DNA of 64,000 nt from positions 372,001 through 436,000 of the forward strand of contig JAHBWI010000004.1 of the NCBI GenBank assembly GCA_019637075.1, written 5' to 3'. The notes under the pieces were generated by a model. That model ran no database searches, was not told where the DNA came from, and was given only the letters and a program-made list of their open reading frames with translations. The stretch is from Nitrospiraceae bacterium (lineage in GTDB: Bacteria; Nitrospirota; Nitrospiria; Nitrospirales; Nitrospiraceae). A program made the translations under genes and the position numbers. Position 1 is the stretch's first letter. Every line of letters starts with the position of its first letter. This document shows positions 24,521-63,195 of the stretch, one piece after another.

Positions 24521-24708
24521 CGTCTACCCTTCAATGTGTATGGTGTATAGGAGTTGGTCGGCTAAAAAGACAAAACTCTCAAAGGATTCGCGAACATTAG
24601 CATGGGTGTGAAGAGGCTGTCAAAGCTGGACTATCGCGCGGGGCACGTCCAACACTCGATGAGAGAGGCGGACGGCAGCGGAGGCTTTTCGGATCAGTGG
24701 AGGACGTA

Positions 24709-42351: not shown

Positions 42352-42360
42352 CTGCTCGTT

Positions 42361-42377
42361 GTAACACAGATTTTACG
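42361..42377 (+). promoter_or_regulatory. Possible Pho-type box upstream of the CBS gene (weak)
   Basis: GTAACA at 42361 and TTTACG at 42372, in the 11-bp phase of the stronger boxes further right. Only two half-sites and far from the start codon, so weak support. Confidence 0.3.
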
Positions 42378-42492
42378 TCCCCCTGAGATTCCCTCAATTC
42401 TCTTCTGCCATCCTTTCGCATCGGCGTACAGCGAGGTTCCGCGATCATGCCGGCCTCGAGCATTCTCTCAACCAGACGCGAGGAGGATCAGG

Positions 42493-42876: not shown

Positions 42877-42989
42877 CGGGATGAAGAAGAACGCCGCGAG
42901 GCTGGCTCTGACTTGAGCCATGCTTATCCTGCCGGTTCTGACGGAATCGACTCGCGTTCCAGATCCCTTCCTTGCTTCGCTCTCCAGAA

Positions 42990-43017
42990 TTAACAATTCG
43001 GTAACAATCTGGTCACC
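42990..43017 (+). promoter_or_regulatory. Pho-type box upstream of the PstS-like gene
   Basis: TTAACA at 42990, GTAACA at 43001 and GTCACC at 43012: three half-sites at exactly 11-bp steps, ending 77 bp before the start codon. Confidence 0.7.
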
Positions 43018-43093
43018 GCCTTGCAATCCTGGTTCGGCACCCTGACCATCAGGAATCAACACAGCAATGATGGTCCACGCCACGAGGTGAGGC

Positions 43094-44203
43094 ATGATGA
43101 CGAAGCGGCAGGTTCTCTATGAAACGGGATGGGGATGGTGGACCGTCGCCATCGTAACCGGTCTAGCAGTGTGGTCGAGCGGGAACTTCAGGGCAAATGC
43201 GGAACAAGCAGGCCCGATGACCGCGGTCACCTTAGATGCCCGCCTTACCAATTACACTGCGAATGAGCCGGTCTCCGGGCATGTTCGAGTTCAAGGCTCA
43301 GAAACCATGCTGCCCCTCATGCAGCGCGTCGCGGCGGAATTCCGGAGACGCCAACCGCAAGCCGGAATCGACGTCACCGGCGGCGGTTCGGCCAAAGCCA
43401 TTGAGCAACTGGTCCAACCTCCGCTCAAATCAACGGGTAAGATCCACCTGAAAGAAGAGCGCCACACCCCTGCCCTGGTTGTGGCTTCGTCCCGTCCACT
43501 CACGCAATCAGAGATCGCACAGTTTACCGCTCAACACGGTCATGCCCCATTGACAGTCGCCGTGGCGGTTGATGCAGTGGCACTCTATGTGCACAAGGAC
43601 AATCCGATCGAAGGCCTCACGCTCAAGCAGGTCGATGCGATCTTCTCCTCGACCCACAACCGCGGGCTACCCGACGACATCAAGCGATGGGATCAACTCG
43701 GGCTCGACAGCAAGTGGAGCCATTCTCCGATCCGCCTATACGGCCGAGATAGAAAATCCGGCACACGCGGCTTCTTTCAGGAGCATGTATTGGCCGGGGG
43801 GGATTTCAGTCCCGGCATACAGGAAGAACCGGGAGCCGCCTCATTGATTCTCGCGCTGTCGCGAGACCCGCTGGGCATCGGTTACAACGGCCTTGGCTTG
43901 ATGAGTTCGAGCGTCCGTGTAGTGCCGCTGGCGGAAGGCTCAGGACAGCCATTTGTTACACCCTCGGCCGCCACCGTTGCGGATGAGACCTATCCCCTGC
44001 GACGGCTGCTGTATCTCCATTTCGACAAGGCCCCGAGCGAACCCCTGCCTGGAGTGGTGACGGAGTTGGTGCAGTTCATCACAAGTCGTGATGGGCAAGA
44101 GGCGGTAGTGCGGGCTGGATTTTTTCCGCTTCCGATCTCTGAAATCGACAAGGGTCAGCTGGCATTGAAGCCGAATGCTGCCCCGATCGCCCCGACGCCC
44201 TAG
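43094..44203 (+). CDS. PstS-like periplasmic phosphate-binding protein
   Basis: A 369-residue exported protein, signal peptide about residues 15-37 (WWTVAIVTGLAVW). The mature part has VRVQGSETMLPLMQRV, VTGGGSAKAIEQL, VDAVALYVHKDNP, the IRLYGRDRKSGTRGFF loop that hydrogen-bonds phosphate in PstS, and GIGYNGLGLMSS. A paralogue of pstS at 56748, but no permease genes are next to it, so it may deliver ligand to PstCAB or act as a scavenger. A three-site Pho-type box lies upstream. Convergent with a lipoprotein gene. Confidence 0.88.
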   Translation: MMTKRQVLYETGWGWWTVAIVTGLAVWSSGNFRANAEQAGPMTAVTLDARLTNYTANEPVSGHVRVQGSETMLPLMQRVAAEFRRRQPQAGIDVTGGGSAKAIEQLVQPPLKSTGKIHLKEERHTPALVVASSRPLTQSEIAQFTAQHGHAPLTVAVAVDAVALYVHKDNPIEGLTLKQVDAIFSSTHNRGLPDDIKRWDQLGLDSKWSHSPIRLYGRDRKSGTRGFFQEHVLAGGDFSPGIQEEPGAASLILALSRDPLGIGYNGLGLMSSSVRVVPLAEGSGQPFVTPSAATVADETYPLRRLLYLHFDKAPSEPLPGVVTELVQFITSRDGQEAVVRAGFFPLPISEIDKGQLALKPNAAPIAPTP

Positions 44204-44210
44204 TCAAGAT

Positions 44211-45146
44211 TCAAGGACCCGTAGGTTTGTTCGGCGACTTTCCGCGCGGCGCTTTTCGGTCAAGCTCCTGACGCAGCTTCGTCACGTCCTCCTTCAACGC
44301 CTCAATCATCTTGCGTTGCTCTTCAACGAGCCGGCGCAGATCAAGATTCGAATGGGTCAGCTCCTGAATCTGAAGACTCAGTTCATCAGTTTGCTGCCGA
44401 GGTTGCAGGCTTTCACCGGCTGTGACCGGGCTGCCCGGAGGGAGGCCAGCGCTGGGACCGTCCCCCACCGAGGTCGCCCCACCGGCTGCAGGCGGTCTCT
44501 TGGCGGAGGCCAACACGTCCGCCACGGTTACTGAGAGGTGAACCCTCTCGAATGGGGCCCAGCGCGGCTCCTCCGCGTCCGGAACCATGGCGGCAGCGGC
44601 CGGGCGATTGACCCAGAGTTTCATTCCTTTGTTGTCGCGCACATCCCGTTCCTCTCCCCCGCCTGTATCAGCCCTCGCGAATTCGGCATGGTCTTGAAGC
44701 ACAACGTGCAGATAGCGACCTCGCAGGAACAGCGCTCCGGCGATTCGGTCATCGCTTGCGCCCTTCCTGGTTCCGATCAGTTGAAACGCGATTCGCTCGC
44801 CCCTTCCCGCATCCTTGAGGCCGTCGGCGATCGGACCGGCAATGGCCTCGAGTTCAGCTTGTGAAAAGACCGGGACCGCGCGGGGTTGCTCAAGAAGTCC
44901 CACCAAGGTCCCGCTCCAACCACTGACCTGCAGCGGTTCCAGAAGCAGCCGGACATCCTCCGCCGACAGGCTGGCGGGATGATTGTTCGCCACTGGTGAC
45001 GCGGCACGCCGGAGACTCGGATCAGGTTCGACGGCAACTCGGACTCCACCCCGATCAAGCAATACCCGCTCGGCTTGCAACAGACTGCAGCCGGGGACCA
45101 AACAGAGGACGACGGCAATCAGAAGCAACTTCCGGCAGTGTCTCAT
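44211..45146 (-). CDS. Lipoprotein with coiled-coil C-terminus, paralogue A
   Basis: About 311 residues from the ATG at 45146 (AAGGAG upstream). A signal peptide ends with lipobox VPGC near residue 20. A conserved region follows (NNHPASLSAEDVRLLLEPL, QVSGWSGTLVGLLEQPR, PVFSQAELEAIAGPIADGL), then VRDNKGMKLWVNRP, a Pro/Ala-rich linker and a C-terminal coiled coil (LSLQIQELTHSNLDLRRLV). Same architecture as the gene at 50788. Third gene of the porin-Slp-lipoprotein operon. I cannot assign a function; a periplasmic or outer-membrane role in phosphate uptake is inferred from context. Confidence 0.85.
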   Translation of the reverse strand: MRHCRKLLLIAVVLCLVPGCSLLQAERVLLDRGGVRVAVEPDPSLRRAASPVANNHPASLSAEDVRLLLEPLQVSGWSGTLVGLLEQPRAVPVFSQAELEAIAGPIADGLKDAGRGERIAFQLIGTRKGASDDRIAGALFLRGRYLHVVLQDHAEFARADTGGGEERDVRDNKGMKLWVNRPAAAAMVPDAEEPRWAPFERVHLSVTVADVLASAKRPPAAGGATSVGDGPSAGLPPGSPVTAGESLQPRQQTDELSLQIQELTHSNLDLRRLVEEQRKMIEALKEDVTKLRQELDRKAPRGKSPNKPTGP

Positions 45147-45286
45147 CGCGAGCTGACTCCTTCTCGGGTCATCGGAGCTAAACGCGTAATGGCGCTCCAC
45201 GCTGCAGCAGGGACGGCCGCTATGGATGATGGGTAGACTCGAACGAGGGCTGGCGTTGTACTGACCACGAAGCAGGAAACGTATGG

Positions 45287-45829
45287 TCAGTGACCGGACA
45301 GGCAGAAGGTGGATTCCTCAAGTGGCTCATACCCACCTCCGATGTTGTGAGGAAATTCGGAGATCTGCTGCCGCCCGGTCAACCAGATGTGCACACATTG
45401 GGCATTGACCGATGGCAATGACCGCTGCACATCGTCGACCGACACGGATTGAGGCGACTCGGTCGTCCCGATAACGATCAACTTGTTTTCCGGCGCCAGG
45501 GCCTTCGCAGGAATCTTTCCGGAAAAGCGAATCACCATCTCGCCGTTGCGCTTGCCTACCTCGCGCGGACCATACGCGGGATGATCGACGATCGGCAGTT
45601 GAAAGGCCACGATTCGCAGCCCATCCGCGCTTGAATCGGCTTGCAAGATGCGTCCGCCCAATTGCACCTTGGTGCCGATCTTGGTGGAAGGAGAGGAGCG
45701 CCAGGCGGAAAAATCAAAGTTCTGATCCACTCCAGACAGCGTCTCGGCGGGAAACAGTTGGGTCGTACCGCATGAAGACAGCAACGGCAGGGCTGCGAGC
45801 ACGACGATCAGGCGAGACAAGCTGGACAT
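45287..45829 (-). CDS. Slp-family outer-membrane lipoprotein, copy 1
   Basis: About 180 residues from the ATG at 45829 (AAGGAG upstream). Signal peptide with lipobox LLSSC, then an Slp-type beta domain: FDFSAWRSSP, KVQLGGRILQADSSADGLR, AFQLPIVDHPAYGPREVG, RFSGKIPAKAL and CVHIWLTG. The family is named after the E. coli starvation-inducible lipoprotein; its biochemical role is not established. Lies 47 bp downstream of porin 1. Paralogues at 48372 and 49209. Confidence 0.88.
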   Translation of the reverse strand: MSSLSRLIVVLAALPLLSSCGTTQLFPAETLSGVDQNFDFSAWRSSPSTKIGTKVQLGGRILQADSSADGLRIVAFQLPIVDHPAYGPREVGKRNGEMVIRFSGKIPAKALAPENKLIVIGTTESPQSVSVDDVQRSLPSVNAQCVHIWLTGRQQISEFPHNIGGGYEPLEESTFCLSGH

Positions 45830-45876
45830 GGCGACAGACTCCTTCTGCCCTCCAAGGGCGCGACCGTGATTGCAGC

Positions 45877-47349
45877 TTACATGAAACGGATCTGCCACTG
45901 CACGAGAAATGCGTTCTGCGCAAAGGGGTCACCGATCCCCGTCGTCGGATCGACCACGGCTCCGGGACCGTTGCCCGAATGGTGGCGGAATTCGTAGTTG
46001 ATCTGCAACTTCGACTGAACCTTGGGCGGGAAGTTCTCGAAGTAGTATGTCAGCCCGACGATGGTCCTCGTATAGAGATCGTTCCCCAGTCTGGTATTGG
46101 GATCGAATTGCTCATACATGACGACCGGCTCGAAATTTTCGAAGATGCCGTCGGTGATCAAATACTTTGCCAGCACATACCAGGTGCGGCGTTGCACACC
46201 CGGGGCACCGGATCCGCCGCATATGGCCTGCACATCGCAGGCACCGTTCGCGGGACGCCCGATCGTCGTCTGATTGGCGCCATCATGTCCTTGCCAAAGT
46301 TCCCCCTGGACCATGAACCCGGGCAGGATTTTTGACGTATAGCGAAAATCTAGGCCGTAGCGGTCGAAGCTGCCCTTGCCGCGGCCGTTGATGTTGGTAT
46401 TCGCATTGTTTGATTCTCCGACGATCGTCGTGAAGCTGACAAACGAGACATCGCTGCCGAACAAACGGACACGGCTGTAGAAACTCTTGGGCGCATTCGC
46501 CCCGGTCGCATTGGCATGGTAGTTGTTGTTGTTCATGACGCCCGCGACATACTCGAGCCGATTGAAGAGCCTTCCACGCATATCGACGAAGAAATCACGC
46601 TCCTGAAGAAAGTCGACCGCACCGGCCGAGCCCGTGCGGTTGCCGGCGCCGTTTCCCACCGACGTGAGATAGGGGGAACTAATCACATCCCGCAAACCGC
46701 CCGAGGTTTCCGTGAAGATGCCGAAGGGCATCCGGAAGATACCCATGCGGATGAAGTTCAGGTTGGGGGCCAAGGACTGAAAGGGCCGGAAGTCGATATA
46801 GCTTTCGCGAAAGAAGGTCGCCGCCGTCGGCTGTCCGGTCGCCGCGCCACTCCCACCGGTCGGCGTCTCTCGCCCAAAATTGATGCTTTGAAATTCGAAC
46901 AGGGCATGCCACCGCGGCAGAGTATCGCTCAGACGGCCCCAGAAGATGATTTCGGACCGTCGGATCGAAAAGTTATCTTGGCTTTTGCCTTCCGGCACGT
47001 GGGCGTCTTGATGGGTATAGAGAAACTGGAGCGCGTTCAAACCGACATTTACCTTGTCCCGTAAAATCGGCAGCAATTCGATTTTGGTCTTCCAATCCTC
47101 GAGAGCGTCGATACGTTTGTCGCGTTCGGTCCCCCGATATTCTTGTTCGGCTCGAATCTGGATCCACTCGTCCATCGTGATCACCCCCTTTTGGAGGAGT
47201 AAATCCTCGACGGGGGTGCCGCCCGCAGGAATATCGGCCTGCTGGGAACTTGGCTGATGGTCCGCGCCCTGCGCCCCAAGAGGAGTCGAGATCAGCGCGA
47301 TTGCACTACACATCGACATAGCCAGGACAAACGAACGGATGCTCCCCAT
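45877..47349 (-). CDS. Outer-membrane porin, phosphate-selective porin O/P type, copy 1
   Basis: A 490-residue exported protein: signal peptide (FVLAMSMCSAIALIS...AQG), a short coiled coil (RDKRIDALEDWKTKIELL), then a beta-barrel rich in aromatic, alternating strands: SIRRSEIIFWGRLSDTLP, FFRESYIDFRPF, IRMGIFRMPFGIFTETS, FDRYGLDFRYTSKIL and C-terminal QNAFLVQWQIRFM ending in Met after aromatic Phe. Resembles OprP/OprO-type porins. Ligand selectivity is inferred from its phosphate context. AGGAGG precedes the ATG; first gene of a three-gene operon behind a Pho-type box. Confidence 0.85.
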   Translation of the reverse strand: MGSIRSFVLAMSMCSAIALISTPLGAQGADHQPSSQQADIPAGGTPVEDLLLQKGVITMDEWIQIRAEQEYRGTERDKRIDALEDWKTKIELLPILRDKVNVGLNALQFLYTHQDAHVPEGKSQDNFSIRRSEIIFWGRLSDTLPRWHALFEFQSINFGRETPTGGSGAATGQPTAATFFRESYIDFRPFQSLAPNLNFIRMGIFRMPFGIFTETSGGLRDVISSPYLTSVGNGAGNRTGSAGAVDFLQERDFFVDMRGRLFNRLEYVAGVMNNNNYHANATGANAPKSFYSRVRLFGSDVSFVSFTTIVGESNNANTNINGRGKGSFDRYGLDFRYTSKILPGFMVQGELWQGHDGANQTTIGRPANGACDVQAICGGSGAPGVQRRTWYVLAKYLITDGIFENFEPVVMYEQFDPNTRLGNDLYTRTIVGLTYYFENFPPKVQSKLQINYEFRHHSGNGPGAVVDPTTGIGDPFAQNAFLVQWQIRFM

Positions 47350-47419
47350 GTGCGGAATCCTCCTGCAGGAATGGATCGGAATTGCGGATCACAGCCTAAA
47401 GAAGGAATATGGACGAGGG

Positions 47420-47447
47420 GTTACGCGAATGTTACGGGCGTGTAACA
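47420..47447 (-). promoter_or_regulatory. Pho-type box upstream of porin operon 1
   Basis: Half-sites begin at 47420 (GTTACG), 47431 (GTTACG) and 47442 (GTAACA): 11-bp phase. On the reporting strand they read TGTTAC, CGTAAC, CGTAAC. About 70-100 bp upstream of the porin ATG. Confidence 0.75.
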
Positions 47448-47497
47448 AACGTGAAAGATTGAAACAGAGAATGGAAATACGGGACTGGAAGCGTCGG

Positions 47498-48214
47498 TTA
47501 AGCCGGCGTCCGCAGTTTGTAGCCGACGCCTCTGATCGTGACGATCAGCCTGGGTTTGGACGAATCCTCCTCGATCTTCTGCCGCAGGGCGTGAATGTGC
47601 ACATCCAGAGCATGTTCTTCCAAGGCAAAATCCTCTCCCCACACCCGGTTCAGCAGTTCCTGCCTGGTCAGCACGATCTCAGGTGATTCGAGGAATTGAC
47701 GCAGGATCTGAAATTCCCGAAGCGTCAGTTCAACCGGCTTGTCCCCGATCCTGACCTCATGCCGTGCAATATCCATCTGGACGGGACCGCAATGTAACGG
47801 AGCACTACCCGCGCGCGCGCTCGGGCGTCGACGCAAAATTGAGCGGATGCGTGCCACGATCTGGCGGACACTTTGATTGCAGAGGCACCCGTCAAGCCCC
47901 TGGTCGAGTTCGGCGATACAGTCGTCTTCCTGAACCATCGTCTCCGGTGATTCGATACTGATGAATGGCACGCGGCTCAGCGCCGGATGGTTGCGCGCGG
48001 AATGCCAACTTCGGATGTGCCGATCAACCAGAACCAACGCCGGCTTGGACTTTTGTGCATAGGCAAGCGCAGCCTGTGGGTCGGGCAGGAGGACCAGCCG
48101 GCAGTTCATGCCCAGGAGCCCTTTCTGGAGCATTCCTTCTAAGGACTCGTTGGCCGAAAGCAGAAGCAGCGTATCGCCGGCGGCTCGTTCAATGGTGTGT
48201 TCAAGCGTCGTCAC
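47498..48214 (-). CDS. OmpR/PhoB-type regulator with degenerate receiver
   Basis: 238 residues. The C-terminal winged helix (about 145-238: LTLREFQILRQFLES, HALDVHIHALRQKIEE, VTIRGVGYKL) is intact and PhoB-like. The N-terminal receiver aligns to the normal fold but has lost key residues: the acidic pair is Ser/Ala (LLLSANES), the Thr is Glu (FISIESPE), the Lys is Asn/Gln (CLCNQSV); only the Asp at 64 (LVLVDRHI) remains. It should not be phosphorylated normally. GTG start. A Pho-type box lies 50-80 bp upstream. Confidence 0.88.
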   Translation of the reverse strand: MTTLEHTIERAAGDTLLLLSANESLEGMLQKGLLGMNCRLVLLPDPQAALAYAQKSKPALVLVDRHIRSWHSARNHPALSRVPFISIESPETMVQEDDCIAELDQGLDGCLCNQSVRQIVARIRSILRRRPSARAGSAPLHCGPVQMDIARHEVRIGDKPVELTLREFQILRQFLESPEIVLTRQELLNRVWGEDFALEEHALDVHIHALRQKIEEDSSKPRLIVTIRGVGYKLRTPA

Positions 48215-48265
48215 GATCGTATCGCTCGTCCTTCATCCAGTATGGAGGAACCTTGTTTCTTCGCC

Positions 48266-48293
48266 GTCAGAATGCTGTTACGGGATCGTAAAT
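48266..48293 (-). promoter_or_regulatory. Pho-type box upstream of the degenerate-receiver regulator
   Basis: GTCAGA (48266), GTTACG (48277), GTAAAT (48288): 11-bp phase. Suggests autoregulation. Confidence 0.65.
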
Positions 48294-48305
48294 TCGGATG
48301 CTGAT

Positions 48306-48333
48306 GACCTGCCACGCATACGCGTGGCAGGTC
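48306..48333 (-). terminator. Hairpin downstream of slp copy 2
   Basis: A 12-bp perfect stem (GACCTGCCACGC and its complement) with loop ATAC, 38 bp after the slp copy 2 stop. No T-run on the minus strand. Confidence 0.55.
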
Positions 48334-48371
48334 GTGGCACAGCGGATGACGTCCCTTTTCCTGGACTGCGG

Positions 48372-48941
48372 CTATTTTTTCGGTACGCACGAGGTTGCCT
48401 GAGGGGAAACGGTCTCCCGGACTCCAGCGCCATCCTTGGTTTCAACTGCCTGTTCCGATCCCGCTCTCCAGATGTGAATGCAGTCGGCCACCAGATACGG
48501 TTCGGACTTCGGATCTCCCTTTACGATGACTGGCTTGCGGCCGCTCGTGGTGCCGACGACAACGAAGCTGTCTCCACTCTTTGCGGCTTCAGCGCTCAAT
48601 TCCCCCGGATACAGCAGAGCAAACTCAAAATCTCCTTTGCGCGTTCCGGCCTCTTTCGGCCCATACACCGGCGAACTCGAGATCGGCAACTGCTCAGCAA
48701 CGATCAACCACCCCTTGCCGTCATTCGTCACTTGCACGATGCGACCGCCCAATTCCACCTTCGTGCCGGAATCGGATTTTCCCGTGTTGTTCGTCGGAGA
48801 AGCTTCTCGCCAGGCTTGAAAATCGAACGTCGGAGCCAGTTTATCCCGATACTCCGAAGGGATCGGCGAGTGGCTGGTGCAGGCCGGCAGCAATGCGGGC
48901 ACGGCAAGTAGTAGACTGATGGCGTAAGACTTCTGTTTCAT
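48372..48941 (-). CDS. Slp-family outer-membrane lipoprotein, copy 2
   Basis: About 189 residues from the ATG at 48941 (AAAGGAG upstream). Signal peptide with lipobox PALLPAC, then the Slp domain: FDFQAWREASP, KVELGGRIVQVTNDGKGW, AEQLPISSSPVYGPKE, LLYPGELSAEA and CIHIWRAG. It carries a C-terminal extension ending SVPQATSCVPKK-like residues with one cysteine. Divergent from copy 3, sharing the strongest Pho-type box. Confidence 0.88.
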   Translation of the reverse strand: MKQKSYAISLLLAVPALLPACTSHSPIPSEYRDKLAPTFDFQAWREASPTNNTGKSDSGTKVELGGRIVQVTNDGKGWLIVAEQLPISSSPVYGPKEAGTRKGDFEFALLYPGELSAEAAKSGDSFVVVGTTSGRKPVIVKGDPKSEPYLVADCIHIWRAGSEQAVETKDGAGVRETVSPQATSCVPKK

Positions 48942-49058
48942 GGGCGCTCCTTTGCATGGGTTGTCTGATTCGGCTGAAGATCGACGACCTTCGGCCACGG
49001 TTTCTCCAGAGACTCCAAAATCTTCATATTTGTAAGCTTGTTGCCACCGGTACCCGGT

Positions 49059-49097
49059 GTTACACTTCAGTTAAACGAATGTTACACACGTGTTACA
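49059..49097. promoter_or_regulatory. Four-site Pho-type box between slp copies 2 and 3
   Basis: GTTACA (49059), GTTAAA (49070), GTTACA (49081), GTTACA (49092): four half-sites at exactly 11 bp. The clearest box in the window. Confidence 0.88.
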
Positions 49098-49208
49098 AAG
49101 ATGCATCAGCCGAACCTGCTTCACATGATCGAGTCGGCGCCTTGTACGGCAGCATCGAGGGTCAAGGTCATGGTCCACAATCTACCTGTCCGGCCGAGGA
49201 GGTTCACG

Positions 49209-49745
49209 ATGAGAGTACTTTCTGTCGGAGTGCTGGCCTGCTCAGCACTCATGGCTTCGGGCTGTTCCACCCCTACGCTGTTTCCTCCCGGTGCTACGAG
49301 CGACGCGACTCCCGTTGAATTCGGCGTCGTTCGAGCACAACCGGACGTGTTCAAGGGGCGCGTCGTCCAGTTGGCCGGTCGTATTGTCGGCGTCGAAGAA
49401 TCGAACCATGGATACCAGATCAGAGCTCAGGAGCTTCCTCTGGAACAACATCCGGTCTACGGGCCCGGAGAAGCGCGTGGACGCACCCCTGAATTTGCGA
49501 TTGCCTACAGCGGTAAGCTCGACCCATCCGCCCGTTGGTACGGCAACAAGTTCGTGGTGGTCGCCGTTGCCCAAGGCACGCAGGACGTGACCGTGGATGG
49601 GAATGTCCGCAATGAGCCGTATGTGGTCGCCACGTGCATGCATATCTGGAAGACCGGCGAGTACGGGTCCTATGGCCTCGGCGATTTTCCCCATACGACC
49701 GACGGCTACTATCCGCTGGAACACGACACGTACTGCGTAAACTAG
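49209..49745 (+). CDS. Slp-family outer-membrane lipoprotein, copy 3
   Basis: 178 residues from the ATG at 49209 (GAGGAGG upstream); an upstream in-frame start at 49038 would begin inside the regulatory box region and is rejected. Signal peptide with lipobox MASGC, then the Slp domain: VFKGRVVQLAGRIVGVEE, AQELPLEQHPVYGPGEARG, IAYSGKLDPSA and CMHIWKTG. The C-terminus ends in a Tyr-rich HTTDGYYPLEHDTYCVN. Of the three copies this and copy 1 share the C-terminal cysteine near the end (TFCLSGH in copy 1). Confidence 0.88.
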   Translation: MRVLSVGVLACSALMASGCSTPTLFPPGATSDATPVEFGVVRAQPDVFKGRVVQLAGRIVGVEESNHGYQIRAQELPLEQHPVYGPGEARGRTPEFAIAYSGKLDPSARWYGNKFVVVAVAQGTQDVTVDGNVRNEPYVVATCMHIWKTGEYGSYGLGDFPHTTDGYYPLEHDTYCVN

Positions 49746-49756
49746 GTTCAGCGCGC

Positions 49757-49786
49757 GACGCAGGTCTCCTCACGGAAGCCTGCGTC
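49757..49786 (+). terminator. Hairpin downstream of slp copy 3
   Basis: An 8-bp stem (GACGCAGG with CCTGCGTC) and 14-base loop, 12 bp past the stop. No T-run; weak evidence. Confidence 0.4.
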
Positions 49787-49820
49787 CCATTCCCGCCGGC
49801 CTCGTCGGTTTTCCCACTTT

Positions 49821-50684
49821 CTACAAGTGTGTTTTCGGGTTCTTCTCCGGAACCTCGGTGAAGCGACAGGCTGGGACATAGCCGTCTCGGCATGAGCGGT
49901 CGTAGTCCTTCAGAGCGCCAGCCGTATCACCCAATATCGAGCGAGCCACACCCCGGTTGTAGACCAACACCTCATCGGAGACGCCCAACTCAATCGCGCG
50001 TGAAAAATCCCGTTCCGCCCGCTCATACTCGCCGGTCAGCATGGAGACGAGACCACGGCTCTGGTACACAGCCGGCATGTCGGCGTTCAGACGCGCCGCT
50101 CGATCCAAATCACGCGCGGCACCATCGAAGTCCTGCCGCATGGCAAGCACCACCGCACGGTTGGCGAAAATCGTTGCATCCTGCCGATTCAATTGCGCGG
50201 CAGTGTCGAAATCTCGAAGAGCGTCTTCTAACTGAGCGAGATGGCGAAGGGCTTGCCCACGATGGTTGAGGAGTCGTGCCGAGGGAGGTCCGAGCCGAAG
50301 CGCATCGTTGAAGGCATCCAACGCCTGCCGGTAGCGCCCGGACTCCAGGTAGACCGCTCCGAGATTACCCCGGTACAAAGGCTGCTGAGGATCCAAACGC
50401 ACCGCTTCGGTAAAATCGCGGATCGCCTGTTCTCTTGCACCTTGCGTGCTGTAGATGAACCCGCGGGCGTTCCACGGTTCCGGGTTGGTGGGCGAGAAAA
50501 CGATCGCGCGAGATGCGGTCTCGAGCGCACGTTCGACTTGACGCTGTTGGAACTCCGTCCGGCATTGGGACAAGAGTGCAGCCATCGGGTCCTGGGAGGC
50601 CATGGGCGGGACAGTCGTCGTACAGCTCCATTGCAGGGCGATGGACAAACTGATTCCAAGCCCCAATCCAACGCGCCAAACCAT
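49821..50684 (-). CDS. Exported TPR-repeat protein
   Basis: About 287 residues from the ATG at 50684 (AAAGGAGGAG upstream). A signal peptide is followed by a cysteine (ALQWSC), not a good lipobox. Then about six TPR units: NPEPWNARGFIYSTQG, QPLYRGNLGAVYLESG, SARLLNHRGQALRHLA, DATIFANRAVVLAMRQ, MPAVYQSRGLVSMLTG and DEVLVYNRGVARSILG. A periplasmic scaffold is likely. Own Pho-type box upstream, so part of the phosphate-starvation set (inference). Confidence 0.85.
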   Translation of the reverse strand: MVWRVGLGLGISLSIALQWSCTTTVPPMASQDPMAALLSQCRTEFQQRQVERALETASRAIVFSPTNPEPWNARGFIYSTQGAREQAIRDFTEAVRLDPQQPLYRGNLGAVYLESGRYRQALDAFNDALRLGPPSARLLNHRGQALRHLAQLEDALRDFDTAAQLNRQDATIFANRAVVLAMRQDFDGAARDLDRAARLNADMPAVYQSRGLVSMLTGEYERAERDFSRAIELGVSDEVLVYNRGVARSILGDTAGALKDYDRSCRDGYVPACRFTEVPEKNPKTHL

Positions 50685-50748
50685 ACTCTCCTCCTTTGGA
50701 ATGCCAATCGGTGCGTGCACCTGACTGGCTGGAGAGTATGGGATTCGT

Positions 50749-50787
50749 GTTACCCGACTCCCAAGGACGGGTTAACTCCGCGTTAAC
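50749..50787 (-). promoter_or_regulatory. Pho-type box upstream of the TPR gene
   Basis: Half-sites begin at 50749 (GTTACC), 50771 (GTTAAC) and 50782 (GTTAAC): 22 bp then 11 bp apart, all in one 11-bp phase. The last overlaps the stop codon of the upstream lipoprotein gene. Confidence 0.7.
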
Positions 50788-51801
50788 TTATTCCGCAGAC
50801 GGCTTGACGGCAGGTTTACGGGTGGGACTCTTGACCGAACCTTTGGAGGCTTTCAGTTCCTCGCGCAGTTGGCGGAGTTCGTTCTTCAATTTGTCCAATT
50901 CAGAAGTCTGTTGCTCCAGCTGCGTGCGGAGCTTTTGATTGGCCATGTCGAGGTCACTGACCTTCTGCTGCACATTCAGCCCACCGTCGCGGGATGCTGG
51001 AGCCGACGCCCCCACGGGGGAAGTGGGCGCGGGCGAGGCAGGTGGGGAGGCTGGCGCGGCAATGTCTGGCTTGGCGGGAACACTGCTCGGTTGCAAGGCC
51101 GCCAGTACATCACGAACTCTCATTGAAACATGAACCTTCTCAAAGGTACTCCACCGGGGCTCCTGCCCCTCAAGCAGAGAGGCGGCCTGCGCCGGCCGCA
51201 CGATCCAGAGCTTCATGCCCTTCGTATCACGAGGGTCACGGCGTTCGCCTCCTCCCGGATCGGCCTGTTGGAAAATATAGTGATCGACGAGGATGAAGTG
51301 CAGGACTCCGTCGCGGATGAACATGCTGCCCGCGGTGCGGTCCGTATCGTAGCGTGCCGAAGGATTTTGCAGCGAAAAGAAGACCCGTTCTTTTGGGCCG
51401 GCCTCCGCAAACGCCCGTGCGAACGGTTCCGCCAGCGCCGTCAGCTCGCTGCCGGCAAACACCGGGACAGGCCGCGGATTATCGAAGACCCCGACGACGA
51501 TGCCGCTCCATCCCGACACCTCGATCGCTCCCAACAGCGTGCGTACCTCCTCGGCGGTGAGTTTCGCAGGATGGGCATTCAGGATCGGCGGAACGGCGGT
51601 CTCCGTGGTGCTCAGGTCGGATTCCACGCCGAGCTGCACGCCTTTGGTTTCGTGCGTGACCCGTTGGATCAACGGCGCAGTACAACCGCTCAGGTAGAGG
51701 GCCGCCACCATGATCAGGGGCGCAACGGTGAACTGCTTGGGGAGACGGAAGAGGGAGCGCTGCGGATGACAGTCACACACGGGAAGGGATAATGGCTTCA
51801 A
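50788..51801 (-). CDS. Lipoprotein with coiled-coil C-terminus, paralogue B
   Basis: 337 residues. Signal peptide with lipobox YLSGC near residue 40, then the same conserved block as paralogue A (LNAHPAKLTAEEVRTLLG, IEVSGWSGIVVGVFDNPR, PVFAGSELTALAEPFARA, RDTKGMKLWIVRP), a Pro/Ala-rich linker and a coiled coil (DLDMANQKLRTQLEQQTSEL). Starts at TTG with GAGG six bases upstream; the N-terminus before the signal peptide is long and uncertain. Third gene of porin operon 2, mirroring operon 1. Function unknown. Confidence 0.83.
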   Translation of the reverse strand: MKPLSLPVCDCHPQRSLFRLPKQFTVAPLIMVAALYLSGCTAPLIQRVTHETKGVQLGVESDLSTTETAVPPILNAHPAKLTAEEVRTLLGAIEVSGWSGIVVGVFDNPRPVPVFAGSELTALAEPFARAFAEAGPKERVFFSLQNPSARYDTDRTAGSMFIRDGVLHFILVDHYIFQQADPGGGERRDPRDTKGMKLWIVRPAQAASLLEGQEPRWSTFEKVHVSMRVRDVLAALQPSSVPAKPDIAAPASPPASPAPTSPVGASAPASRDGGLNVQQKVSDLDMANQKLRTQLEQQTSELDKLKNELRQLREELKASKGSVKSPTRKPAVKPSAE

Positions 51802-51812
51802 GAGATCCTCAT

Positions 51813-52157: not shown

Positions 52158-52159
52158 GC

Positions 52160-53596: not shown

Positions 53597-53690
53597 GTAC
53601 AGTCCTCCTATGATGAGTGTGACGACGAATACGCCGCCTAAAACGCTTCCGATGAATCCCGTTGGTTGCTGCACCGTGGTACAGCTGCGC

Positions 53691-53729
53691 TGTAACGATG
53701 CATTCAGTCATGTGTTAGGACTGTGTAAA
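53691..53729 (-). promoter_or_regulatory. Pho-type box upstream of porin operon 2
   Basis: On the plus strand TGTAAC (53691), TTCAGT (53702, poor), TGTTAG (53713), TGTAAA (53724), each 11 bp apart; on the reporting strand these read TTTACA, CTAACA, ACTGAA, GTTACA. About 95-135 bp upstream of the start. Confidence 0.7.
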
Positions 53730-53812
53730 CTCCGTGAGCCTGCCGGTTGAGCGATCCTTCCTAGACCCGCTCGCAGCCTCCTGAACTATCGCTTCTCGTA
53801 TGGATACGGACG

Positions 53813-54262: not shown

Positions 54263-54337
54263 CGCCGCCCTGCCCGTTCCCTGCTCCAGAACTCGCGCTG
54301 ATGTACCTTGTCGAAAATGCGGGCTTCGTCACCGGAA

Positions 54338-54354
54338 GATTAATGTTGTGTTAA
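54338..54354 (-). promoter_or_regulatory. Pho-type box upstream of the receiver-less regulator
   Basis: On the minus strand TTAACA (54354-54349) and TTAATC (54343-54338), exactly 11 bp apart. Confidence 0.6.
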
Positions 54355-54378
54355 CTCCCACCGGAGCCGGCGGAAGAA

Positions 54379-54406
54379 TTAACCAAGCCCTAACCTTGGG
54401 TTAAAC
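54379..54406 (+). promoter_or_regulatory. Pho-type box upstream of psiE
   Basis: TTAACC (54379), CTAACC (54390), TTAAAC (54401): 11-bp phase, about 115-143 bp before the psiE ATG. Confidence 0.7.
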
Positions 54407-54521
54407 GAGACGGAACAACGCGGCGGTAGCTTGCTGATGACACAGCGGTGAGAAGGAGCGGGGTCAGTCAGCCACTGTCGGCCGGAGTCCTGCACAACAG
54501 ACAACGAAGGAGCGACGGAGA

Positions 54522-56463: not shown

Positions 56464-56619
56464 CGTACATTCCTCCTTGAGTGATGGCCTGCTGCATGAT
56501 CCTCCTCCCACGTCACCGGCTCATGTGGCCCGACTCAAGAGCTTGTTACATTGCGAGAGTCCGACCCCAGGCCTCCGTGATGAACCCCGGCAGCGATGCC
56601 GCCCTGTGAATTCGAGGAA

Positions 56620-56647
56620 TTAACACGCGCTTAATGTGTCGGTAAGC
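56620..56647 (+). promoter_or_regulatory. Pho-type box upstream of pstS
   Basis: TTAACA (56620), TTAATG (56631), GTAAGC (56642): 11-bp phase. A TACACT at about 56667 could be the -10 element. Confidence 0.72.
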
Positions 56648-56747
56648 CCTGCGCAATGTCGCCGGCTTACACTGCATCTGCTCATCGTGCAGTCATCCAT
56701 ACGGTAATCATTCACTTCTTCGTTCATTCATGGGGAGGCATCCGGTT

Positions 56748-57761
56748 ATGTTCGAATTGTCGCGACGTCAAATGATGGCCGCTGTGACCGTCACCGTGCT
56801 GGGTCCGTTCTTGACGATGACTTGGGCCCATGCAGAAGGAGCCGCGGGCCAATCCAAGGCGCAACAGGTTGATCCGGCGCTCAAGTCGTATGCAAAGGTC
56901 AGTGGCGTATCCGGCACGCTCAACAGCATCGGATCCGACACGTTGAACAACTTGATGACGCTCTGGGCAGAAGGGTTTCATCGGCAATACCTGAATGTGA
57001 AGATTCAGGTAGAAGGCAAGGGATCGAGCACGGCGCCCCCCGCTCTCATCGAAGGCACCGCGCAGCTCGGGCCGATGTCCCGCCAGATGAAAGCGAGTGA
57101 GGTTGACGCCTTCGAAGCGAAATTCGGCTACCCTCCCACCGCCTACCCGGTCGCGATCGATGCCTTAGCAGTGTTCGTCAACAAAGATAACCCTGCGGCC
57201 GGCCTGACGCTTCAGGAAGTCGACGCAATCTTCTCGAAATCCCGCCGCCAAGGCCATCCCAACGACATAGCCAAGTGGGGACAGGTCGGCCTCACCGGCG
57301 AATGGGCTGCGGCGCCGGTCAGCCTGTACGGCCGAAATTCCGCCTCCGGCACCTACGGTTTTTTCAAGGAACATGCGCTCAAGAATGGGGACTACAAAGA
57401 CGAGGTCAAGGAACAGCCCGGGTCGGCCTCCGTGGTGCAAGGCATTACCGAGGACCGGTTTGGGACGGGCTACAGCGGGATCGGGTACCTCACCTCCGGC
57501 GTCCGGATGGTGCCGCTTGCCGCCAAAGCCGGACAGCCATTCGTGGAACCGTCGCTGGAGAACACCAAGAACGGCAGCTATCCGCTCTGGCGCTATTTGT
57601 ATGTCTATGTGAACCAAGCTCCGGGCAAACCGTTGTCGCCGATCGTGAAAGAGTTCCTGAAATACGTCTACAGCCGCGAGGGACAGGCAGACGTGCTGAA
57701 GGACGGCTACTTCCCTCTCGATGGGACCGTGACAGAGAAGCAATTGTCGGTAATCAAGTAA
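56748..57761 (+). CDS. pstS: Phosphate ABC transporter substrate-binding protein
   Basis: 337 residues from the ATG at 56748 (GGGGAGGC upstream). The N-terminus [11 protein letters not shown] with a following hydrophobic stretch to AHA looks like a Tat signal. The mature part has [71 protein letters not shown] (phosphate-binding loop) and [12 protein letters not shown]. Leads pstSCAB-phoU-ppx. Captures phosphate in the periplasm for PstCAB. Confidence 0.95.
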
Positions 57762-57778
57762 GAGCGCGGAAGAGTCTC

Positions 57779-59983
57779 ATGGTATCACCGGCCCGCCGAC
57801 GATTCTTGATCGACCGCCTCGCTGGATCTGTCATTTCCATCGGCGGGCTGGCTACGATTGCCTGTATCCTCGCAATCTTCTTCTTTCTCTTTCGGGAAGT
57901 GACTCCCCTGTTCACCGCTCCGACGGCCAAACCCGTGCAACGACTGGCCTTGCCTGCCTTCTTGATGGCCGAGGGGCCGGCCCAGTTGGGCGTGGACGAT
58001 CGCCGAAAGGTCGGTTATCTCCTCACTGCCGGCGGGCTGTATTTCGTGGATCTCACGACGGGGCAACCAGTCCCGGTCGACATGCCTCCGTCACTGAAGG
58101 AACGGCGAATGACAGCCCTGGCACATGGCGGCGGGAAGTCCACCCGCTATGTCGCTGGCACCGCCGACGGCGACATCCTGTTTCTCAAGCTAGGGGTGAG
58201 GAGCACCTTCGACGAATCAGGTCAGCGGGTTACCACCCCGGTCATCAGCGCCGGCGCGGCAGTGCACGTGACGGATGCTCCGATCAGCGCCCTTACTTAC
58301 CGAGCCCAGGATGGCGACAGCAGCCTCGTCGTGCTGACGGAAACCGGCAGTCTGCTCGTCGGCCGGCACCTTGATGACAGTCGCCCGATCGATCCTTCTA
58401 GTTTGAGTGTCGTCATGGAGCCGGGAACGTTGATGACCGAGGTGGCGCTCGATACCACATCAGAGAATCTTTATTTGGGCACCAGCGACGGGAGAGTCGT
58501 CCACGTGGTTCTGACAGACGGCCAACCGCTGGTGACAAAGGGCTACTACCAGACGGGGTCGCCCGAGCAGTCCGTGACCAAGCTGGATTTTTTGAACGGC
58601 GGCCGCACCCTGGTCGTCATGACGTCCGGAGGCACCGTCGCGGCGTGGGGACTCGTCCGTCCCCCCGACGACCCATCACGCTGGGTGCTTCAGCGGACGC
58701 ATGAGTTTCGATCCCATGCTGCTCCCGTGACGGCCTATGCGCCGTTTCAGCTGGTCAAGGGGTTCGCTACGGCTGACGCGATGGGTCAAATTCAGATCCA
58801 TCACTCCACGTCGGAACAGACCTGGATCAAGCTGTCGAACGGCACGTCGGCGGTCAAAGCGCTGGCCCTCGCCCCCAAAGGCGACGGCCTGTTGGCTTAC
58901 GACGCGCTGGGCCGGCTGACCCTGTACGACTTGCATAACACCTATCCCGAGGTCACGTGGCAGACCCTCTTCGGCAAGGTCTGGTATGAAGGGTATGACC
59001 GTCCTCAGCATGTGTGGCAATCCTCGTCCGGGTCGGATGAATTTGAACCCAAGCTCGGGCTGATTCCTTTGGCCTTCGGCACGCTCAAAGGCACGATCTA
59101 CGCCCTATTTCTTGCCATTCCCGTGGCGATTCTCGCCGCAATCTACACCTCTCAGTTCATGCACCCGACGTATCGGGCCAAGATCAAACCGACGATCGAA
59201 GCCATGGCGGCGCTGCCGACCGTCGTGTTGGGGTTCCTCGCAGGCCTCTGGCTTGCGCCCCTGCTCGAACGGCTCTTTCCGGCACTCATCGGGATGGCCC
59301 TCTCGGTTCCGATCGTCGTCATCGCTTGCGCTCTCCTCTGGCACCTGGTGCCGCAGCACGTGAAGGGGAGACTCACGCAGGGAACCGAATCATTGCTGCT
59401 CGTTCCGGTCATCGCGCTGACCATCGGGGCCTGCCTCTGGTCCAATCAACTCCTCGACCACATCTTGTTCGCCGGAAACTACAAGGCCTGGTTGCTGGAT
59501 CGGCTCGGGATTCAATACGACCAACGTAACGCCTTAGTCGTCGGCATCGTAATGGGCTTTGCCATCGTCCCCGTAATTTACAGCATCGCGGAAGAAGCCC
59601 TCTCCAATGTTCCGAAAACACAGATTGCCGGATCGCTTGCGCTGGGGGCCACCCGCTGGCAGACCGTCGTGCGCTTGGTGCTGCTGGCGGGAAGCCCAGG
59701 CATTTTTTCGGGCATCATGATCGGGTTCGGGCGGGCCATCGGGGAAACCATGATCGTCTTGATGGCGACAGGAAACACACCACTCCTGGATTGGAACTGG
59801 GCCAACGGCTTCCGCACCCTGTCGGCGAATATCGCGGTCGAGATTCCGGAGGCACCCCAGGGCGGAAGCCTCTACCGTGTGCTGTTTCTGGCGGCGCTGC
59901 TCCTGTTCGTCGTGACCTTCATCATCAACTCGATCGCCGAGATCGTGCGCCAACGGCTCAGGAGCAAGTACAGCCATGGATGA
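57779..59983 (+). CDS. pstC: Phosphate ABC transporter permease with periplasmic propeller insertion
   Basis: 734 residues, more than twice the usual PstC. One transmembrane helix (about 18-42) is followed by about 380 periplasmic residues with repeated beta strands resembling a WD40-like propeller (TAGGLYFVDLTTG, YVAGTADGDILFLKL, LYLGTSDGRVVHVVL, LLAYDALGRLTLYDL). The PstC permease core starts near residue 430 (LIPLAFGTLKGTIYALFL) and includes the EALSNVP...ASLALGATRWQT loop that docks on PstB. Large insertions of this type exist in other PstC proteins. It starts 17 bp after pstS. Confidence 0.93.
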   Translation: MVSPARRRFLIDRLAGSVISIGGLATIACILAIFFFLFREVTPLFTAPTAKPVQRLALPAFLMAEGPAQLGVDDRRKVGYLLTAGGLYFVDLTTGQPVPVDMPPSLKERRMTALAHGGGKSTRYVAGTADGDILFLKLGVRSTFDESGQRVTTPVISAGAAVHVTDAPISALTYRAQDGDSSLVVLTETGSLLVGRHLDDSRPIDPSSLSVVMEPGTLMTEVALDTTSENLYLGTSDGRVVHVVLTDGQPLVTKGYYQTGSPEQSVTKLDFLNGGRTLVVMTSGGTVAAWGLVRPPDDPSRWVLQRTHEFRSHAAPVTAYAPFQLVKGFATADAMGQIQIHHSTSEQTWIKLSNGTSAVKALALAPKGDGLLAYDALGRLTLYDLHNTYPEVTWQTLFGKVWYEGYDRPQHVWQSSSGSDEFEPKLGLIPLAFGTLKGTIYALFLAIPVAILAAIYTSQFMHPTYRAKIKPTIEAMAALPTVVLGFLAGLWLAPLLERLFPALIGMALSVPIVVIACALLWHLVPQHVKGRLTQGTESLLLVPVIALTIGACLWSNQLLDHILFAGNYKAWLLDRLGIQYDQRNALVVGIVMGFAIVPVIYSIAEEALSNVPKTQIAGSLALGATRWQTVVRLVLLAGSPGIFSGIMIGFGRAIGETMIVLMATGNTPLLDWNWANGFRTLSANIAVEIPEAPQGGSLYRVLFLAALLLFVVTFIINSIAEIVRQRLRSKYSHG

Positions 59984-59992
59984 GGTACCGGT

Positions 59993-61621
59993 ATGAATCG
60001 ATTCTGGCGCGGCGGAGAATTGTTCGTCTGGTTGACGGCCTCGGGCGTCGCGGTCAGCCTGCTGATGGTCGGAGGAATGTTGGCTCTCATCATGGTCCAC
60101 GGCTTAGGTCAATTTTGGCCGGCACCGCTGCAGGAAGTCACCTTAAAGAACCGTCAGATTCTCATCGGCGAGGCCATCGGCCAGGAGCGAATGCCGGGTT
60201 CCGTGACCGCGGAACACCCGGAAGGGCTCCGACGCATTCGCTTCAAGGTCGGCAATCGCGATACATTCGGCACAGATTTCCGGTGGGCCAACGAGACGGA
60301 TATCGAGTCACGCGCCACCCCCGGCGACCTAGTTTTCGTCGAACGCCGGGAGTGGGGACCGGCCTACGGCAGAGTTCAGGGTCTCACCCATCGGGAAGCG
60401 GGTGACATCCCGATCGTTGAAGACTGGCCTCAGATCCTTGCTCATCTCGCCTCCGCCACGGAGTTGCGACATCGCATCGAGCGCATCGAACGGGAAGATA
60501 TCGGCGAGATCAATCAGCGTATCGAGGCCGCGAGCCTTCAGCGCCGGGCCCTTTCTTCGGAAATGGCCGGGACGCCACATGCAGAGACACAAGATCGGGC
60601 ACTGGCCGGTCGGATGGCCGAACTCGAGCACGAGTATCAGGTGAAAACGGGAGAGCTGGAGGACCTACACCGACGTGCCGACAACGAACACCTCCTCCTC
60701 AGTCTGTCCAACGGGAAACGGATCAGCATCCCGCTCTCGCAGATCGTCTCGCTCATGCGTCCGAACGAGATGAATGGGCTCGACAAAACCAAGGCCTATC
60801 TCGGCAACCTCTGGACGTTCCTCTCCGGCGAGCCTCGTGAGGCCAATACGGAGGGGGGCATTTTCCCGGCCATCTTCGGCACGGTGTTAATGGTCTTTCT
60901 CATGACGCTGGCGGTGATGCCATTCGGCGTGATGGCGGCGATCTACCTTCGGGAGTATGCCAAGCAAGGGGTGATGGTGAGGCTGGTGCGGATCGCGGTG
61001 AATAATTTGGCCGGCGTCCCCTCCATCGTATTCGGGGTGTTCGGACTCGCATTCTTCATCTACGCGTTGGGAGGATCGATCGACCGCTGGCTGTTCCCGG
61101 AATCTCTTCCCAACCCGACCTTCGGCACAGGCGGAATTCTCTGGGCCTCCCTCACATTGGCCCTGTTGACGGTGCCGGTCGTCATCGTTGCGACGGAGGA
61201 AGGCCTGTCGGCCGTCCCTCGGGATTTTCGGGAAGGCTCAGTCGGGCTCGGCGCAACCCGTTTTGAAACGATTTGGCACGTCATCCTCCCCTGTGCGTTG
61301 CCGGGTATCCTGACGGGATTGATTTTGGCCATGGCACGAGCGGCCGGTGAAGTCGCTCCCTTGATGCTGACAGGTGTCGTGAAACTGGCGCCGTCACTCC
61401 CGCTCGACGATCACTTTCCGTTCCTCCATCTCGATCGGAAATTCATGCATCTCGGATTCCACATTTATGACGTCGGGTTTCAGTCACCCAACGTCGAAGC
61501 CGCGAAACCGATGGTGTATATGACAACGCTTGTCTTGATCGTGGTGGTCATCACGTTGAATTGTGTGGCGGTCGTGTTGCGCAACCGCTTGCGTAAGCGC
61601 TATGCCGGCTCGGCAGTCTGA
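59993..61621 (+). CDS. pstA: Phosphate ABC transporter permease with coiled-coil insertion
   Basis: 542 residues versus about 280-300 in ordinary PstA. One N-terminal membrane helix ([20 protein letters not shown]), then about 250 periplasmic residues including a coiled coil near 155-230 ([37 protein letters not shown]), then the permease core from about residue 293 ([19 protein letters not shown]) with the [20 protein letters not shown] loop. Starts 9 bp after pstC. Its insertion may pack against the PstC insertion. Confidence 0.93.
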
Positions 61622-61640
61622 CATGTTGGAGGACCCGCAC

Positions 61641-62504
61641 ATGGAACAAGGATCCAGTACACTCCCGGGCGTCAGCCCGGACATCTCGGCCCGGGCCAAA
61701 GCGCCTTCCCTCCGCCCTTCCGTCGACAAGACCCCCTTGCCGCAACCCGCGAGCAGCAAAATGCAGGTCCGAACCCTGGACTTTTTCTACGGCAAGGCGC
61801 AAGCCCTCTTCAAGGTGAACCTCACGATCCGCAAGAATTCGGTGACGGCATTCATCGGGCCGTCCGGCTGCGGAAAATCGACGCTCCTACGTTGCCTGAA
61901 TAGGATGAACGATCTCGTAGAAGGCGCGAGAGCCGTTGGCCGCGTGGAGCTGGACGGGACCGACATTTACAGCCCGCACATCGACGTCACGGACCTTCGC
62001 AAACGGGTCGGCATGGTGTTCCAAAAATCCAATCCATTTCCCAAATCCATCTATGACAACGTCGCCTACGGTCCGCGTTTGCATGGAACCAAGAGTCGCG
62101 CGACACTGGACCACCTGGTACAGACAAGCTTGCAAGGCGCAGGCTTGTGGGAGGAGGTCAAGGATCGATTGGCGCAGAGCGCCCTTGGCCTCTCCGGCGG
62201 GCAGCAGCAGCGTCTGTGTATCGCACGGGCGCTTGCTGTTCAGCCGGAAGTCATTCTAATGGATGAGCCCTGTTCGGCCCTGGATCCGATCGCCACGGGC
62301 AGGATCGAAGAACTCATCTTTACCTTGAAGGATCGTTACACGGTCGTGATCGTCACCCACAGCATGCAACAGGCGGCGAGAGTCTCGGACCAGTGCGGCT
62401 TCTTCCTCATGGGCGAATTGGTGGAGTTCGGCGATACCAAATCGATCTTCACCATGCCGAAGGACAAGCGGACGGAAGACTACATCACCGGGCGGTTCGG
62501 GTAG
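61641..62504 (+). CDS. pstB: Phosphate ABC transporter ATP-binding protein
   Basis: 287 residues from the ATG at 61641 (GGAGG upstream). The first 40 residues are a disordered Ser/Pro-rich extension not usual in the family. The core has GPSGCGKST (Walker A), [32 protein letters not shown] (signature plus), VILMDEP (Walker B), SALDPIATG and [13 protein letters not shown]. Drives PstCA. Short gap to pstA and phoU. Confidence 0.96.
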
Positions 62505-62526
62505 GATTCACAAGGAGGCCGTGCCC

Positions 62527-63195
62527 ATGCAGCGACATTTCGATCACGACCTGGCCCAGTTGAAAGACCATCTTCTTCGAATGGGCGCCATGGTGGAGCA
62601 TCAAATTCAGCGGGCCCTGGAGTCCCTGGTCGAGCGCGATTCCGACACCGCCATTTCGGTCATCGAGCGTGACCATGAGGTCAACGCTCTGGACGTCGAA
62701 ATCGACGACACTTGCATCAAGCTGCTGGCCACTCAGCAACCCACCGCGCGGGATCTTCGCTTCGTCAGCACCGCCATGAAGATTTCCTCTGAGCTCGAGC
62801 GCATGGGAGACCTGGCGGACAACATCGCCCAACGCGCGCTCGAGCTGAACGGGGAACCGCAACTCAAGCCCTATATCGACATTCCCAGGATGGCGAATTG
62901 GACGATGCGGATGGTCAAGGAATGCTTGGACGCCTTCGTCAATTCCGACCCCGTCCTTGCGCGAAAAGTCTGCGTGGACGACGATGTCGTCGACAGCATC
63001 AATGAACAGTTGTTTCGGGAACTGCTCTCCTTTATGCTGGAGAACCCGGCGACGATCACCAGAGCGATCCGGCTCACGTTTGTGGCCAAATCCCTCGAGC
63101 GAATCGCCGATCACGCCACCAACATCGCCGAACTCGTGGTGTATATGGTGGAGGGGAAAAACATCCGGCACGTTGCTCCGTCCGCGCCGCTCTGA
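62527..63195 (+). CDS. phoU: Phosphate uptake regulator PhoU
   Basis: 222 residues: two PhoU three-helix repeats (about 12-100 and 118-205) with the metal-binding motifs ERMGDLADNIAQRA and LERIADHATNIAELV. PhoU damps Pst transport and, in many bacteria, phosphate-sensor signalling. I use the ATG at 62527 over a GTG at 62521 because AAGGAGG is too close to the latter. Its usual partner PhoR is not visible here. Confidence 0.95.
   Translation: MQRHFDHDLAQLKDHLLRMGAMVEHQIQRALESLVERDSDTAISVIERDHEVNALDVEIDDTCIKLLATQQPTARDLRFVSTAMKISSELERMGDLADNIAQRALELNGEPQLKPYIDIPRMANWTMRMVKECLDAFVNSDPVLARKVCVDDDVVDSINEQLFRELLSFMLENPATITRAIRLTFVAKSLERIADHATNIAELVVYMVEGKNIRHVAPSAPL

Follow-up and report, generated by a model that had tools for sequence, protein, structure and literature searches.

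A PhoB-family regulator with a degenerate, probably phosphorylation-incompetent receiver in the Pho regulon of Nitrospira-type bacteria

The 64,000-nucleotide stretch of DNA analysed here (the window) encoded, within a phosphate locus, a PhoB-like regulator (RR*) that, judging from its sequence, is probably a phosphorylation-incompetent pseudo-receiver transcription factor of the PhoB family. On balance, we favour a role for RR* as a phosphorylation-independent second-tier activator that would be induced as part of the Pho regulon, set mainly by its own abundance and placed in a feed-forward loop. RR* represents a family of atypical response regulators for which we know of no earlier description, and we would file it as such and not as PhoB.

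A Pfam search of RR* returned Trans_reg_C (PF00486) as its sole match (residues 159-234, 96.3 bits against a gathering cut-off of 26.2 bits) and no receiver domain. This bore out the complete winged helix claimed in an earlier interpretation of the DNA from its letters alone (the sequence-only reading), and the same OmpR/PhoB-type match was present in 44/44 family members, just three of which matched the Pfam receiver model, even at an E value of 0.01. An AlphaFold2 model (pLDDT 87) comprised a receiver fold and a winged helix, with a pTM of 0.55 that leaves the arrangement of the two domains unsure. The closest PDB folds were OmpR/PhoB regulators, the atypical RitR, HP1043 and GlnR being among the matches. 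TIGR02154 (PhoB equivalog) was the best-scoring family listed, at 114.7 bits for RR*, far under the cut-off of 296.2; the canonical PhoB of the same genome, at 235.9 bits, likewise fell under it.

Alignment with RegX3 and with its own family indicated that RR* has lost its phosphorylation pocket. The acidic cluster E/D/E was replaced by S20/A21/N22, the conserved Thr by E88, the Lys by C112 and the aromatic residue at K-3 (the switch Tyr) by G109, with Asp64 retained at the phosphoacceptor position. Having S20/A21, D64, E88 and C112 where a canonical phosphorylatable receiver has an acidic pair, Asp, Thr/Ser and Lys, RR* is a pseudo-receiver in the sense of PMC12632262, i.e., a receiver fold minus key catalytic residues. 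The sequence-only reading had thus identified these residues correctly, and the check that it proposed, structure prediction combined with alignment, confirmed that they are missing from a domain still predicted to fold as a receiver. None of the 48 aligned family members, the window gene included, kept the acidic pair or the Lys; the Thr position held Ser in four and Thr in none, position 112 was Cys in 36/48, and the switch aromatic was absent throughout. The phosphoacceptor position was D in 40 and E in 7 of the 48, and the adjoining Arg65 was Arg in 46. As every aligned member has lost both the acidic pair and the Lys, so that close homologues have no intact pocket at these positions, sequencing error and misalignment were ruled out as causes of a loss common to the whole family. 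The earlier proposal that switching of RR* by a kinase is improbable is likewise supported.

We searched 175 genomes of the same family as the source at the protein level and found close, short-form, full-length RR* homologues in 67 of them (the source genome included), spanning eleven genus groups; absence calls come from this one similarity search of partly incomplete assemblies. A scan of a genome collection yielded 53 RR* loci, of which 49 (L040-L088), including N. moscoviensis and N. defluvii, came from bins that almost without exception bore the label Nitrospira or Nitrospirota; our host label "Nitrospira-type" rests on the relatives. In a maximum-likelihood tree the family formed a single clade separate from canonical PhoB (100/99 support). 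Mean identity within it was 94% for the recognition helix, 72% for the winged helix and 41% for the receiver. In 12 of 13 close pairs dN/dS was 0.05-0.31 for the receiver and 0.015-0.13 for the winged helix; the exception, the very close pair L055/L056, gave 0.53 for the receiver on very few changes. Since these values are well under 1, the degenerate receiver is maintained by purifying selection, and a pseudogene was rejected for both domains. The literature searched, which left most subscription journals outside, contained no account of this family or of any pseudo-receiver belonging to a Pho regulon.

The window contained a PstS-like gene, a pair of type-B porins, lipoproteins of the Slp and LpX kinds and an operon that we take to be pstS-C-A-B-phoU (Table 1). 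Among 50 loci with RR* homologues, a PstS-like gene was nearby in 40, type A porins in 38, type B porins in 7 and the lipoprotein LpX in 34; 25 loci had a CBS protein, and some a pstSCAB-phoU operon. The porin-like gene 3' of RR* had no Pfam or NCBIfam match, and its product may, by context, be a phosphate porin. Porin, Slp and LpX genes were present in at least two copies within 44211-53674, which suggests duplication of a phosphate-envelope cassette. A PhoB-type winged helix for which no receiver was found upstream in any frame was encoded directly before the second porin, and a 106-aa relative precedes a porin in locus L047; the window protein may be a second kinase-independent regulator of the phosphate locus. 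Some pst loci contained "type B" regulators that mirror RR* in having an intact receiver and a degenerate winged helix (L083:8061-8753, L061:1576-2409, L052:3587-4291 and, possibly, L093:14621-15379 in the source genome). Their co-occurrence with RR* was common in one genus and not strict, and an obligate pairing was rejected because RR* was missing from some genomes with type B and because no close type-B match was present in several RR* genomes, the source included.

Table 1. Features of the window; box scores are given as matrix 1 / matrix 2.
Feature	Position	Strand	Details and basis
CBS-domain gene	42493-42876		Pho-type box in front
PstS-like phosphate-binding protein (PBP_like_2)	43094..44203	+	Pfam
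Porin-like outer-membrane gene, 3' of RR*	45877..47349	-	cluster porinB
RR* (PhoB-like regulator)	47498..48214	-	238 aa, GTG start; ORF listing, PF00486, alignment, AF2
RR* domains	residues 14-129; about 140-236		pseudo-receiver; winged helix
Cys112 codon	47879..47881	-	receiver Lys position; alignment
Asp64 codon	48023..48025	-	phosphoacceptor Asp position; alignment
Slp lipoprotein genes, divergent	48372-48998; about 49209-49745	-; +
TPR-like gene	49821-50720		Pho-type box in front
Second porin	52160-53674		Pho-type box in front
Receiver-less PhoB-type winged helix	53813..54262	-	149 aa; PF00486, 87.9 bits
Gene 54522-55025	54522-55025		Pho-type box in front
pst operon: pstS (56730-57761), pstC, pstA, pstB, phoU (62521-63195)	56730..63195	+	ORFs, clusters; product names presumed
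Box before CBS-domain gene	42357..42390	+	15.1 / under threshold
Box before PstS-like gene	42986..43019	+	27.4 / 31.3; best in window
Box before porin 45877..47349	47417..47450	-	GTTAC-N6-GTAAC-N6-GTAAC; both matrices
Box before RR*	48263..48296	-	TTTAC-N6-GTAAC-N6-CTGAC; 15.3 / 13.9
Box between divergent Slp genes	49067..49100	-	both matrices
Box before TPR-like gene	50757..50790	-	both matrices
Box before second porin	53700..53733	-	both matrices
Box before receiver-less regulator	54325..54358	-	24.9 / 20.7
Box before gene 54522-55025	54375..54408	+	18.5 / 12.6
Box before pst operon	56616..56649	+	22.3 / 13.9

Many of these genes were preceded by a Pho-type box, consisting of three units of GTTAAC-like direct repeats with an exact 11-bp period. 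Of 212 upstream regions, 30 carried GTTAAC at spacing 11, and no six-mer so spaced was present in more than 3 of the 170 controls; an unrelated CTTCTT-like repeat, spaced by 12 and 15, was present in up to 11 controls. When the window was scanned with a matrix built from other genomes, the window itself being left out (matrix 1), ten separate sites scored 14.4-27.4, all within 42.3-56.7 kb, and the best score in the reversed window was 5.5. A further matrix (matrix 2), derived from ten genomes that lack a close RR*, recovered nine of the ten, plus one weak site outside the locus (8.4 at 24594), with a best score of 7.4 in the reversed window. Using a threshold exceeded by 0.5% of background 300-bp stretches, matrix 2 marked an upstream box for 46/51 RR* genes, 51/57 PstS-like genes, 12/14 genes of the 54522 type and 15/24 CBS genes, for none of 40 LpX genes, for no PstC/A, PhoU, YyaL, Pal and other genes, and for none in most controls. 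Where RR* and PstS genes are divergent, sites can be shared; many RR* genes had their own box near the start. A hand-made pattern allowing one mismatch gave 6 matches genome-wide against 8 for its reversed control, and its four exact matches were the sites from which it was made; we therefore rely on the matrix scans alone. The box that the sequence-only reading had noted in front of RR*, 48 bp before the GTG start, proved real, as both matrices that scored it were not trained on the window. This box in its promoter and the conserved phosphate locus support the placement of RR* in the Pho regulon.

The source genome also encoded, elsewhere, an intact PhoB-like regulator beside a PhoR/PnpS-like kinase. 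A Pit-type phosphate transporter adjoined this pair as well (L094), and a weak Pho-type box (L094:3809-3842, score 9.8) lay ahead of the neighbouring genes, which we take to be DUF47 and Pit. Orthologues of this canonical PhoB were found in 165 of the 175 genomes; for good genomes the count was 113 of 114, and for those that carry RR* it was 66 of 67. Some genomes had a second intact PhoB gene ~3-10 kb from RR* (L158:14109-14819, L156:5779-6489). The same boxes occurred in ten genomes without a close full-length RR*, eight of which show canonical PhoB and two of which (G053, G101) have a relative of the family that is diverged or membrane-bound. When exact patterns were counted, box and RR* did co-occur beyond chance expectation (odds ratio 7, p 3e-7, without correction for kinship). 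The ten genomes carrying the box without a close RR* weakened the idea of an RR*-specific operator, and as the boxes occur without RR* and canonical PhoB is near-universal, they are most likely bound by PhoB.

PhoB touches bases through T194, V197, R201 and R219 (PMC3264566). The equivalents V205 and R228 were kept in RR*, with Ala in place of T194 and Ser or Ala in place of R201; the source genome's own PhoB kept the first three contacts (T194, V197 and R201). The alteration of two of four base contacts argues for a DNA specificity differing from that of PhoB. W184, G185, E191 and D192 of PhoB are needed for, or contact, RNA polymerase (PMC3973317), and the transactivation-loop residues of RR* that align with them (W192, G193, E199 and E200) were invariant. 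Given the changed base contacts together with the invariant polymerase-facing loop, we read RR* as an activator with its own specificity.

We postulate that phosphate starvation would switch the canonical PhoR/PhoB pair, and that PhoB~P would bind the 11-bp-period boxes ahead of RR*, PstS genes and porins. Newly made RR*, its receiver no longer needing phosphate, would be active at once and could, as a second-tier activator, turn on genes for phosphate uptake or for the envelope by way of its family-invariant recognition helix; its activity would be set mainly by its abundance, as in a feed-forward loop. In this scheme we infer the binding of PhoB to the boxes, the dimerisation and activation by RR* without phosphate, and the promoters that RR* targets. 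The sequence-only reading had envisaged a regulator that works constitutively or through its abundance, with a positive or negative loop as the result. Control by abundance is supported by the regulator's own box; the self-loop is the weaker part, because the boxes are also present in genomes without a close RR*, which makes PhoB their simplest owner, and because RR* departs from PhoB at two of the four base contacts. A feed-forward arrangement, with PhoB inducing RR* and RR* acting downstream or alongside, would fit better. Pseudo-receiver regulators may work through abundance, partner proteins, redox cysteines or ligands (PMC12632262); for RR*, abundance appears to have the most direct sequence support, namely the box. 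Abundance control alone leaves the conservation of the receiver unexplained.

RR* could instead be a direct sensor, with cysteines at the site of the former pocket modulating DNA binding as a redox or metal switch. C99 (helix alpha4) and C112 (the Lys position) occurred together in 32/48 members, often with a third Cys at 94 (all three in 28/48), the C-x4-C-x12-C pattern was also present in the divergent member L155, and redox-switched atypical regulators exist (RitR, HP1021; PMC12632262, PMC5965902). However, one sub-clade (L080, L083-L085, L087) lacked C99 and C112, the membrane-bound relatives lacked the motif, the window gene lacked its first Cys, and the positions are unlike those in RitR (linker) and HP1021 (alpha1-beta2 loop); we consider such a switch unlikely. 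That the pocket was rebuilt in this way so as to read phosphate starvation and redox/metal state together seems to us a little less likely again; if true, one transcription factor would integrate these signals in nitrite oxidisers. Alternatively, RR* might occupy the same boxes as PhoB, as a competitor or heterodimer partner that damps or tunes the regulon. Such a box precedes its gene, its winged-helix fold is that of PhoB and WhiI/BldM provide a precedent for heterodimers (PMC12632262, PMC4125116), but its nearly invariant recognition helix differs from PhoB at T194 (Ala) and R201 (Ser/Ala), leaving this reading a small chance.

An inefficient but real phospho-switch, with Asp64 still phosphorylated despite the missing residues, would be consistent with Asp or Glu at position 64 in 47/48 members and with reports that pocket substitutions do not always abolish phosphorylation chemistry, so that it may be slow or unusual in some pseudo-receivers (PMC12632262). 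Every member has lost the acidic pair, the Lys and the switch aromatic, and only four keep Thr/Ser; we regard this reading as very unlikely. The faster divergence of the receiver might also point to a decaying paralogue without function, a reading to which we give almost no credence given purifying selection on both domains, the conservation of the recognition helix and retention across so many genomes and genus groups.

The RR* clade also contained relatives of ~470-550 aa (L152:4469-6049, L153:4193-5701, L154:4564-6207, L157:4800-6200, L159:5195-6703) that combine a secreted-looking N-terminal part, a hydrophobic stretch (VPLPA/PEP-CTERM-like in L154), a pseudo-receiver and a winged helix. 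They adjoined PEP-CTERM-like and exopolysaccharide genes, where there were no Pho boxes, and look like membrane-bound one-component regulators. How pseudo-receivers switch has been called a mystery (PMC12632262), and the RR* clade amounts to a natural experiment, in which a single regulon with a single set of boxes can be compared in the presence and absence of a pseudo-receiver regulator across 175 related genomes, intact PhoB serving as internal control. In the literature searched, we found no relevant work on how Nitrospira regulates its Pho genes; for this major nitrite-oxidiser group, the RR*/PhoB scheme would be a first regulatory model of phosphate control. Part of Nitrospira-type phosphate control probably runs through a regulator made on demand, not switched by a kinase.

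Phosphorylation-independent OmpR/PhoB regulators are already known, and RR* does not amount to a new type of system. ChxR (Chlamydia) and HP1043 (Helicobacter), the latter among the fold matches of RR*, are atypical members of the OmpR/PhoB group that work independently of phosphorylation (PMC3960148), as RR* probably does; they lack the phosphoacceptor Asp (ChxR, PMC3960148) that RR* keeps as Asp64, and their regulons differ. With RitR and HP1021, RR* shares a degenerate receiver with cysteines, but the positions do not correspond: in the 48-member alignment there was no conserved RitR-type linker Cys, and the HP1021-type Cys (alpha1-beta2 loop, DD+19) was not conserved, Cys38 of the window gene being Tyr in 43/48 members. 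Like GlnR, which controls nitrogen genes in actinomycetes and whose retained Asp is reported to matter for dimer formation and not for phosphorylation (PMC12632262), RR* is an atypical OmpR/PhoB regulator of a nutrient regulon with a retained Asp; unlike GlnR, it serves another regulon and has a phosphorylatable paralogue within it. RR* resembles PhoB of the E. coli type in domain order, in its winged helix with transactivation loop, and in sitting among pst genes with direct-repeat boxes of 11-bp period, and it differs in lacking a receiver pocket, in two of four base contacts, in forming a separate clade and in coexisting with an intact PhoB.
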